Virus record (IMG/VR): IMGVR_UViG_3300031952_000056
Span: 1-38,117 of that record
Length of the DNA stretch: 38,117 bases
Reading direction: 5' to 3' (one strand)
Source of the DNA: a virus
Position numbers and translations under genes: made by a program. Shown here one piece after another: positions 17,225 through 23,889 of the stretch (positions are counted from its first letter, which is position 1; each line of letters opens with the position of its first letter). A model generated the notes under the pieces. The model had not been told where the DNA came from, made no database searches, and saw only the letters and a program-made list of their open reading frames with translations.

Positions 17225-17817
17225 GTCAGTTGAAATACCGCCGCGACGTGTGGGCGCTCGGTCCGAACCAGACGGGTTATCCTGGTGGATTCCCTAACGG
17301 ATTCATCGAGCAACTTAAAAAGAACGGATGGTGGGGGGAAAAGAGGCTGTGGGTATTCAGCGGCGGATTCAAAGACCGAGAAGGAACAACAGTAGACATC
17401 AAGCCTGAATGCAACCCCTCGGTCGTGGCAGATGCCACGGCGCTTCCATTCGATGATGAATCATTCGATTTCGTCTGCCTTGACCCGCCATATTCTGAGA
17501 AGGAATCTCAGGAACTTTATGGTCTACCAATGCCGAGTATAACGGCGTTCCTGAATGAGATGGCTCGTGTTCTCAAGCCTGGTGGGACAGCCGTCCTACT
17601 CAGCCGCATTGTCCCAAACTGTTATCCACAGCAAAACGAACACTGGCGGCGGCTGTATTGGAAGGGCATAATTGGAGTGTTCACAATCGCAGGGATAGCG
17701 AACATGAGAGCGCTTTGTGTCTGGGGGAAAGAGCAGACGCTAAAAACAAACCCCCGCTGCGAACCCCCCAGGGCCGGAGCGACGGCAGAGCCAGAGAAGC
17801 AACAAACGGACGTTTAA
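17221..17817 (+). CDS. SAM-dependent (DNA-type) methyltransferase, acquired
   Basis: 198 aa. Class I methyltransferase core: ADATALPFDDESFDFVCLDP with DPPY at residues 88-91, the catalytic motif IV of amino-methylating DNA enzymes, and EMARVLKPGGTAVLLSRI. Motif I is poorly marked (LWVFSGGF about 43-50), and the protein lacks a clear target-recognition domain. A+T-rich codons differ from neighbours. Could protect viral DNA from restriction or modify another substrate. A second methyltransferase is at 22630. Confidence 0.65.
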   Translation: MSQLKYRRDVWALGPNQTGYPGGFPNGFIEQLKKNGWWGEKRLWVFSGGFKDREGTTVDIKPECNPSVVADATALPFDDESFDFVCLDPPYSEKESQELYGLPMPSITAFLNEMARVLKPGGTAVLLSRIVPNCYPQQNEHWRRLYWKGIIGVFTIAGIANMRALCVWGKEQTLKTNPRCEPPRAGATAEPEKQQTDV

Positions 17818-17830
17818 GGAGGAATAGAAA

Positions 17831-18619
17831 ATGTGCAAAGCATTCAGTTGTGTGGTGAAGAAGAGCACAGGCAAGGTCTATTGGAAGAGGGCGATTGACT
17901 CTCACGATGGCATCAAGAATCACTTCAAGCTGAAGGACGACACAGAGGACGGCCTGTGCAACATCGAGGTCACGCCAGACAAGGGCTATCTGTGGCCGGA
18001 GAAGCACTGGACGATGTTCTTTGACAACACATCGAAGGCACCGCCGGAATGGTGGAAGAAGTCACATGACGATGCGGTGATGCACGCATTCGAGGATTGG
18101 AAGAAAGAGGCCTATGCGCTGATTGACGTGAAGAAGCTGCGCTCATTGAAGAACCCGCTGAGCGGCAAGCCGAAGAAGCCGACGAAGGAGGATATAAGGA
18201 ATCTTAATGTTTATGCTTCGCTCGGGGCTTCGCTCGGGGCTTCGCTCGGGGCTTCGCTCGGGGCTTCGCTCTGGGCTTCGCTCGGGGATTCGCTCTGGGA
18301 TTCGCTCGGGGCTTCGCTCGGGGATTCGCTCTGGGATTCGCTCGGGGCTTCGCTCGGGGATTCGCTCTGGGATTCGCTCGGGGCTTCGCTCTGGGATTCG
18401 CTCTGGGATTCGCTCGGGGCTTCGCTCTGGGATTCGCTCAGGGATTCGCTCAGGGATTCGCTCAGGGATTCGCAGAAGAGAGAAATCAAGAGAGTCTTCA
18501 GCGCGAATGCCGCGCTGTGGAAGCGCGGCTTTGTCCCGCTGACAGCAGACTACAAGACATGGTATCTCTATTCAGGCAACCCGGCGAAGAGGGTATATAC
18601 GCTTGAGGCGACGCGATGA
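17831..18619 (+). CDS. Tetrapeptide-repeat protein, (A/D)-S-L-(G/W/R) x 21
   Basis: 262 aa; strong ribosome binding site AAGGAGGAA at 17815-17823. Residues 1-128 form a basic, Trp-rich domain ([40 protein letters not shown]). Residues 129-212 are 21 uninterrupted four-residue repeats plus DS. The last 48 residues ([31 protein letters not shown]) form a second small domain. Leu recurs exactly every 4 residues, compatible with a helical or solenoid rod. Proteins with similar SV-W/R-D/A repeats are, to my memory, scattered in metagenomic phages, without known function. A+T-richer than its surroundings. Confidence 0.7.
18215..18472 (+). repeat. 12-bp coding tandem repeat GCTTCGCTCGGG, 21.5 copies
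   Basis: Unit is G(C/A)T TCG CTC (G/T/A)GG. Variation is confined to two bases per unit: C/A in the first codon (Ala/Asp) and G/T/A at the first base of the last codon (Gly/Trp/Arg). No length errors break the frame. The repeat also keeps other frames open, which explains spurious ORFs over it. Confidence 0.95.
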
Positions 18620-19022
18620 GCAAAAAGAAATCATCAACGACGGAGGTAACGAAGATGGACAACGAAGGGATAGAACTCAACGGCAAGAAGTATGTGCTCG
18701 CATCGAGCATCAGAGCAACGAAACAGCGTGAGAGCCTCGCGGCGAAGAAGTATGTCATCGTCAGGACATACAGCGCGGGAGTGTTCGCAGGACGGCTCAA
18801 GAGCAGAGTCGGTCAGGAAGTGACGCTCCAGGATGCGAGGCGAATTTATTGGTGGGAGGGAGCAGCGTCCCTGAGCCAGTTGGCGATTGATGGGACAAGC
18901 CTCCCCGATAAGTGTAAATTCCCTGCTGCGGTAGATGAGATTCTGCTGCTGCAAGCGATAGAAATCATCCCCTGCACAGACAAGGCAAGAGTGAGCATAG
19001 AAGCAGTCAAGGAGTGGAAGTT

Positions 19023-19026
<4 letters not shown>
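18616..19026 (+). CDS. Widespread phage protein family (DUF6948-like)
   Basis: 136 aa. Core: KKYVIVRTYSAGVFAGRLKS, RRIYWWEGAASLSQLAIDGT, VDEILLLQAIEIIPCT. This combination is characteristic of a family found in many unrelated tailed phages; I believe it is DUF6948, from memory. Function unknown. ATG 18616 overlaps the stop of the repeat protein and lies in the shared junction sequence GAGGCGACGCGATGAG. Its stop overlaps the start of the Gly-Ser peptide, so all three are probably co-translated. Confidence 0.7.
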
Positions 19027-19148
<122 letters not shown>

Positions 19149-22629: not shown

Positions 22630-23889
22630 ATGGTAGACGTGCCCCCCGTCGCACTCGTGCGCGTGGCCGACCTCAAGGTCGACGGAAGAAACCCCAACGT
22701 GATGACGAAGGCGCAGATGGAAGCGCTCAAGGAGAACATGAAGCGGTACGGGTTCATCGTGCCCGTCATCTGCAACAAGGACCTGCTGGTCGCGGACGGA
22801 GAACACAGGCTCCAGGCGGCCAAGGAACTCGGCATGACGGAGGTGCCCGTCGTGGCGCTCGACGTGACGGACGTGGACCGGAAGATGCTCCGACAGGTGC
22901 TCAACAAGCTGCGCGGACAGCATGACCCCGAGAAGGACCTCGATGAGTACAAGGCGCTCATGGACTCCAACGAACTCCAGACGTTGGCGGACCTGACAGC
23001 GCAGGATGCCAGCAAGCTGCTCAAGCTGATGGACCAGGGAGACACGTACGTCGACCAGGCCTTCGACGTCGACAAGGCATACGAAGGGGCCCCTGTGGCC
23101 TCCGTTGGCGACGTTTGGCGGCTTGGGGACCACACGATGGTCGTGGAGGACTGCACGCAGGACGCAACGTACGAGCTCTTCAAGGAGCCATTCCACGTGA
23201 CCCTGACGGACCCGCCGTACAACGTGAACTACAATGCCGTGGCGAGGCATCACCCCAACACGACCTCGTGCAGCGGAACCATCATGAACGACAACCTACC
23301 GGACGCGGCCTACGAGAGCCTGCTGAACGGTATGGCGCATCAGATTCTCAAGCGGACGCTGGGAAGCATCTACATCTGCATCGGAGCGCAGAGCCTACCG
23401 GTTCTCATGGGGGAGATGCTCAAGCAGGGGGGGCACTGGAGCACGACCATCATCTGGGCGAAGAACCACTTCACGCTCACGCGGAAGGATTACCACAGCC
23501 AGTACGAGTGCCTGTGGTACGGATGGAAGGAAGGCAACAAGCACACGTTCTTCGCAGGCCGTACGACGAGCGACTTCTGGGAGCAAGAGCCGTCCGCGCG
23601 AGGCCGCAAGCCAGGCAACCGGACGGACATCTGGCGACACCCGAAACCGAACGCGAGCCCGAACCATCCGACGACGAAGCCGCTCGAGCTCTGTCGGCAC
23701 GCCATCCTGGACAGCACAACCAAGGGCGAGACGGTCTTCGACCCGTTCTTGGGCAGCGGCAGCACACTCATCGCATGCGAGCAGACGGGACGCAAGTGCG
23801 TGGGGGTCGAACTCGACCCTCGCTACGCGAGCGTGGTCATCCTGCGATGGGAGCATTACACGGGCAAGAAGGCACACAAGGAGGTGTGA
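22630..23889 (+). CDS. ParB-like nuclease domain fused to N4/N6 DNA methyltransferase
   Basis: 419 aa. Residues 1-95 are a ParB/Sulfiredoxin-type domain: RNPNVMTKAQMEALKENMKR, VADGEHRLQAAKELG (GEHR at 57-60). A linker leads to a methyltransferase with catalytic motif TLTDPPYNVNYN (DPPY 194-197) first and SAM-binding motif VFDPFLGSGSTLIACEQTGR (371-380) last, i.e. beta-class order. The region between (about 200-360) may include target recognition. Fusions of this kind are common in phages and are thought to modify viral DNA against restriction; no cognate restriction enzyme is encoded. Ends in the ribosome binding site of the next gene. Confidence 0.9.
   Translation: MVDVPPVALVRVADLKVDGRNPNVMTKAQMEALKENMKRYGFIVPVICNKDLLVADGEHRLQAAKELGMTEVPVVALDVTDVDRKMLRQVLNKLRGQHDPEKDLDEYKALMDSNELQTLADLTAQDASKLLKLMDQGDTYVDQAFDVDKAYEGAPVASVGDVWRLGDHTMVVEDCTQDATYELFKEPFHVTLTDPPYNVNYNAVARHHPNTTSCSGTIMNDNLPDAAYESLLNGMAHQILKRTLGSIYICIGAQSLPVLMGEMLKQGGHWSTTIIWAKNHFTLTRKDYHSQYECLWYGWKEGNKHTFFAGRTTSDFWEQEPSARGRKPGNRTDIWRHPKPNASPNHPTTKPLELCRHAILDSTTKGETVFDPFLGSGSTLIACEQTGRKCVGVELDPRYASVVILRWEHYTGKKAHKEV

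Follow-up and report, generated by a model that had tools for sequence, protein, structure and literature searches.

Why does a tailed phage carry a gene in which one 12-bp unit is repeated 21 times in the same frame, and does the variation between these units reflect the behaviour of the DNA or a demand placed on the protein? The gene lies in a virus record of 38,117 bases, the whole of which was analysed and is referred to here as the window; both head and tail genes of a tailed phage can be recognised in it.

The array gene and its surroundings

The open reading frame concerned (17831–18619, plus strand) runs from an ATG to a TGA, encodes 262 amino acids and is preceded by a good ribosome-binding site (AAGGAGG, 17816–17822). 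It consists of an N-terminal domain (aa 1–128; 17831–18214), a tetrapeptide array (aa 129–212; 18215–18466) in which each 12-bp unit encodes [AD]SL[GWR], and a C-terminal domain (aa 213–262; 18467–18616), and relatives have both end domains. The 21 perfect (A/D)-S-L-(G/W/R) repeats reported in a preliminary description of this DNA are indeed present, as exactly 21 uninterrupted units, and their origin by chance is excluded. TRF places the array at 18217–18473, with a period of 12 and 21.4 copies, and detects in it, as a weak fit, a higher-order period of 36 bp. Variation is confined, as had been claimed, to two bases per unit: base 2 (GCT/GAT, Ala/Asp) has a diversity of 0.52, base 10 (GGG/TGG/AGG, Gly/Trp/Arg) one of 0.62, and the remaining ten bases one of exactly 0. 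The array opens with a run of ASL[GW], after which A/D and G/W/R are mixed without strict order; unit order is near-random in arrays generally, with only a weak preference for even lags. The RNA structure of the window array is nothing special (z = -1.2). It had also been stressed that the frame is never broken, which is true but is weak evidence, because five of the six frames of the window array have no stop codon and most other arrays are also open in several frames, so an intact frame is not evidence in itself.

A methyltransferase gene ends 13 bp before the start of the array gene, and the next gene downstream (18616–19026, plus strand), encoding a DUF6948 protein (PF22253, E = 5e-31), overlaps the array gene by four bases. 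The array gene has unrelated small genes on both sides and lies about 6 kb from the terminase (24451) and head genes (portal, 26172; prohead protease, 30701; SU10-like capsid protein, 32774), with the tail genes (tail tube, 2031; tape measure, 3736) in another part of the window. These neighbours are absent beside the array genes of relatives, with the exception of DNA methyltransferases in a few loci, and this lack of conservation fits an accessory gene. A ParB-like N-terminal domain fused to an N6/N4 DNA methylase is encoded at 22630–23889 (plus strand), and relatives of this methylase occur near array genes in six loci. The window also contains a second in-frame array, 0.6 kb downstream (19023–19148, plus strand), in a 41-aa open reading frame made up almost entirely of Gly-Ser/Asp/Tyr dipeptides; it is built from a GGCTCA hexamer repeat and shows a four-base overlap with the stop of the DUF6948 gene. 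L068 and L070 likewise have a GS[DY] array, separated by a few kb from the tetrapeptide one.

Relatives of the array protein

IMG/VR scans yielded relatives at over a hundred loci, with two architectures. In the first, which is that of the window, an N domain with the motif MCxxFSC and an invariant DSH is followed by an array of [AD]S[VL][GWR] units and a C domain of the form LWxxGLVPSFDGKxWRLH. The C domain of the window protein is a divergent copy of LWxxGLVPSFDGKxWRLHxG. Thirteen columns of the N domain are invariant in 15 relatives (C2, S6, W18, D23, S24, H25, E46, P49, D65, P72, W74, W90 and P109). The window protein has C2, S6, D23-S24-H25, W90 and P109, and it carries the C-domain pattern LWxxG[LF]VP...W.L..G in divergent form, its own C domain giving tblastn matches in only three loci. 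In L041, L042 and L056, the array and the C domain are the same but the N domain is a different one. In the second architecture, which includes shorter relatives of the same type, the array stands ahead of DUF6745 (PF20530; E-values of 1.8e-27 in L001, 6.8e-53 in L003 and 1.8e-68 in L004), a domain for which a Pfam search of the window protein gave no match. These DUF6745 proteins (for example L001, L003, L004 and gene 38 of the M. abscessus prophage prophiGD102-1) have the same kind of array, placed between conserved segments, but their end domains differ from those of the window protein and their arrays are longer (median 25 versus 17 units). The prophage gene has 46 units of the [GD]QL[GWR] type, and another protein of this architecture, in MW202476, has SSL[GWRE] units; both of these come from isolate or annotated records.

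The N domain is also combined with other repeats, in two gut phages and one bacterial contig: 9-residue repeats of the NSQVGEMRE type in L140 (2001–2753) and L141 (2001–2454), and 8-residue repeats of the GGTVSAIR type in L145. Such combinations suggest that the repeat module is exchangeable. A single protein among the N-domain relatives with a readable linker (L111) has the same domains joined by a 65-residue non-repetitive linker; the array is thus not an absolute requirement. In 297 genomes of the phylum to which the L018 genome belongs, the N domain gave one match, near a contig end and with a different repeat, and a scan of genome contigs found three array-bearing loci, two of which are doubtful (short pure DSLW runs). 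At L012 (5001–5637), short open reading frames in tandem contain DSLG/YSLR-like arrays; these occupy more than one frame and include THSG repeats.

Library searches gave little for this family. The window protein has no match in Pfam and only weak, repeat-based matches in PHROGs and NCBIfam, and the N domain has none in Pfam, PHROGs, NCBIfam or solved structures. The DNA pattern of the window unit has no exact match in viral contigs, and a tblastn search with the protein gave no matches among annotated phages and plasmids, in part because low-complexity filters mask the array. Judged from these comparisons, the array proteins form a large phage family that is undescribed in the libraries searched (Pfam, PHROGs). 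The preliminary description would have been undermined by relatives with frame-shifted arrays or arrays dominated by stop codons; in the relatives found, the frame of the array is kept and the [AD]S[VL][GWR] rule is the same, although written in different codons.

Variation within and between arrays

The analysis of variation covered 60 non-redundant arrays, each with 10 or more units. Base 2 had a mean pairwise diversity between units of 0.45 and base 10 one of 0.65, close to the maximum for two and three states, respectively; no other base exceeded 0.11. In all 60 arrays, the outer residues are variable and the Ser and Val/Leu codons almost constant within the array, and in 51 of the 60 the third bases of these two codons do not vary at all. 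Between arrays, 22 combinations of Ser and Val/Leu codons are found under a single amino-acid rule; codons are free to differ from one array to another, and the feature that is shared is therefore the rule rather than the DNA. These figures bear on the idea that the array is a neutral 12-bp minisatellite without function. It is a simple tandem DNA repeat, and arrays do grow and shrink between near-identical contigs, but variation at amino-acid-changing bases in 60 of 60 arrays, and almost never at synonymous ones, together with one rule under 22 codon backgrounds, makes this explanation barely credible.

Codon usage at the variable residues points in the same direction. Gly is encoded by GGG in 355 of 365 cases and Arg by AGG or CGG in 433 of 434, as expected if each variant is one step away from a homogenised unit in which Trp (TGG) has to be encodable. 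A single type of Arg codon is used per array in 59 of the 60 arrays, which argues against random mutation at base 10. The base that varies depends on the residues concerned: at residue 1 it is base 1 for Q/E and base 2 for D/G or A/D, some arrays have S/Y at this position, with the varying base moving with the residue, and bases 10 and 11 both vary when residue 4 is L/S/R/G. As the residue positions are constant and the varying bases are not, selection on the protein is indicated, rather than drift or a DNA hotspot. Targeted mutagenesis of bases 2 and 10, for example by a diversity-generating retroelement or at a G-run hotspot, would accord with the finding that in most arrays the two varying bases flank a GGG run. 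However, random change at base 10 would yield AGG and CGG, whereas all arrays but one have just one of them; the varying base shifts in arrays with other residues; and one pair of closely related arrays (L065 and L068) differs by whole units only. The adenine-spread substitutions that are the signature of a diversity-generating retroelement are absent, base 10 being T or G plus either A or C, and targeted mutagenesis is considered highly improbable. It is, by contrast, very probable that the array is hypervariable and selected at the level of the protein.

Repeat number and unit order, the comparison of which among close relatives had been proposed in the preliminary description, both prove to vary. 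The contig pairs compared are metagenomic assemblies, in which repeats are error-prone, so that the following array differences could partly be assembly errors: L065 and L068 have 29 and 33 units, with no other difference in the array and a single differing base in 4.1 kb of flank; between L027 and L028, 11 of 204 bases are different in the array versus 9 of 6,560 in the flanks (Fisher p = 2e-12); between L039 and L069, 15 of 204 are different in the array, every one at base 2 or base 10, versus 35 of 4,193 outside (p = 3e-9), and the arrays also differ by one unit in length (a 12-bp indel); and between L128 and L129 the array shows one difference (at base 2) versus 7 of 5,935 outside. Even so, several pairs from different assemblies are identical (L068/L070, L033/L034 and L045/L046). 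The strings of units suggest that blocks were shuffled, rather than single bases mutated. In L014 and L009, the flanks of which are 85–89% identical, every Ser codon has nevertheless changed (TCG versus AGC), which implies that the whole array was either replaced or expanded anew.

Predicted structure and possible role

The full protein was modelled with AlphaFold2 from an alignment with 23 relatives, and the N domain was also modelled alone. Both ends are predicted to be folded: the N domain has a pLDDT of 87 when modelled alone, with values by ten-residue block of mostly 77–96 (lowest 70, near residues 51–60), and the C domain is predicted as a helix and three strands with a pLDDT of about 88–92. 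The array has a pLDDT of 33–39 over most of its length and below 50 across aa 138–208. Foldseek and VIA-align found no solved relative (best Z 3.6 for the full length and 2.7 for the N domain), a null result that does not make the fold new. The alignment had raised the idea of an N-terminal Cys nucleophile, given the M-C start and the invariant C2 and H25, and this received no structural support.

A selected rod with variable exposed residues, rather than decay, was the interpretation originally offered. Selection on the protein and the two folded ends agree with it; the rod and its exposed residues do not fare as well, because AlphaFold2, which was to distinguish a solenoid from a helix, gives the array no structure. 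In a structural or adhesive rod, the array would be a solenoid or fibre that belongs to the virion or to the cell surface and binds a receptor through its variable residues. A solenoid would go well with units that recur exactly every four residues, 5 to about 50 times, and that combine two fixed with two variable positions. Apart from the low confidence of the model, the rod is countered by the location of the gene among small genes, at a distance from the terminase and head genes and apart from the tail genes, and by family searches that found no signal or tail-fibre domain. Nothing points to the virion or the surface, as the filament, adhesive or membrane-active role once considered conceivable would have it, and we regard the rod as unlikely. 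Weak array matches, to ClfA and to a type I specificity subunit, were put down to low-complexity chance; the latter was the sole match in PADLOC (E = 0.012), which found no defence-related domain in the window protein. A profile search gave a further weak match between the array and PDB 9ikm (TLP-4; E = 0.03).

The low pLDDT of the array is better suited to a flexible, disordered spacer, or to a sticker-spacer chain with W, R and D as stickers, in which length and composition matter rather than fold or order. The near-random order of units, the non-repetitive linker of L111 and the presence of other repeat types beside the N domain in L140, L141 and L145 also favour such a chain. The constraint on S and V/L is nonetheless stronger than a plain spacer needs, and so is the persistence of a hydrophobic residue at every fourth position even where the DNA is degenerate (L030 and L086; 95–96% of phase, p<0.0002), which leaves the spacer a possible but somewhat doubtful explanation. 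The L111 linker has no significant four-residue periodicity (p = 0.75), and this protein was set aside as proof of a structurally required period.

The closest precedent is gp54 of mycobacteriophage Tweety (Che8 gp57, PMC gp51; phrog_3416), which has 48 units of A-A-[GWQ]-[SY] between unique ends (PMC2884959). Like the window protein, it is a phage accessory protein with a 12-bp, four-residue array and distinct ends; two residues of the unit are fixed and two variable, G or W is specified by an NGG codon through its first base, and copy number differs between relatives (48, 26 and 15), as it does in the window family (PMC2884959). Its substitution pattern was read in 2007 as selection for variation (PMC2884959). 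Later work, as related in two reviews, reported that Tweety mutants escaping the Phrann prophage defence had gained or lost gp54 units, so that repeat number, by experiment, tunes a counter-defence (PMC9262239, PMC8549241). The units themselves differ, being [AD]-S-[VL]-[GWR] in the window family, and the end domains have no detectable homology to gp54 (hhalign probability of 0.2% for the N-domain profile); gp54 matches phrog_3416 at 1e-142, and the window protein does not match it.

Two other systems invite comparison. Variable region 2 of bbp36, a non-essential gene of Bordetella phage BMP-1 that has been likened to Tweety gp54 (PMC2884959), is an in-frame, short-unit array of variable length, but its 24-bp element, compared here by description, combines a 19-bp repeat with a 5-bp spacer of one of three kinds. 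Pentapeptide repeat proteins (PF00805) share a short exact period with fixed and free positions, but this period is 5, with the form A(D/N)LXX, rather than 4; the window protein has no Pfam match to them and AlphaFold2 predicts no beta-solenoid.

As the layout and mode of variation are shared with gp54 and the ends are not, it is proposed that the window protein works in the manner of gp54 without belonging to its family. An accessory gene acting as a non-homologous analogue of Tweety gp54 would best explain the evidence as a whole, with a probability that we put at about 0.42, and a counter-defence-like role in particular is a tentative suggestion, held at a little under even odds. Against this reading stand the failure to find a defence-related domain, the lack of detectable homology between the end domains and gp54, the repeat-free linker of L111 and the chance that some array differences are assembly errors. 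The gene would probably serve the phage in counter-defence or in some other interaction with its host or a resident prophage. The chain of units may hold two conserved, folded domains at a variable distance, or let them face a variable surface; in-frame recombination or slippage between near-identical units would generate new lengths and orders, and phages with an array of a length or order suited to the current opponent would be retained. It is also conceivable, if unlikely, that unit number and order serve as a rapidly evolving code, for recognition or for distance, against host and prophage defences that themselves change, driven by recombination independently of retroelements, shared by many phage lineages and recruited by several unrelated protein families.

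One phage protein of this design was already known, namely Tweety gp54, described in 2007 and shown in later work to be tuned by repeat number. The relatives collected here show that this design is common among environmental phages and that it occurs there in at least two architectures without relation to that of Tweety, with arrays that obey an amino-acid rule in their variability and outpace the surrounding phage. Whether the number or order of repeats sets the defence that is beaten thus becomes testable in many systems, and these proteins represent an unannotated class of candidate counter-defence genes, hidden from ordinary searches by low-complexity filters.
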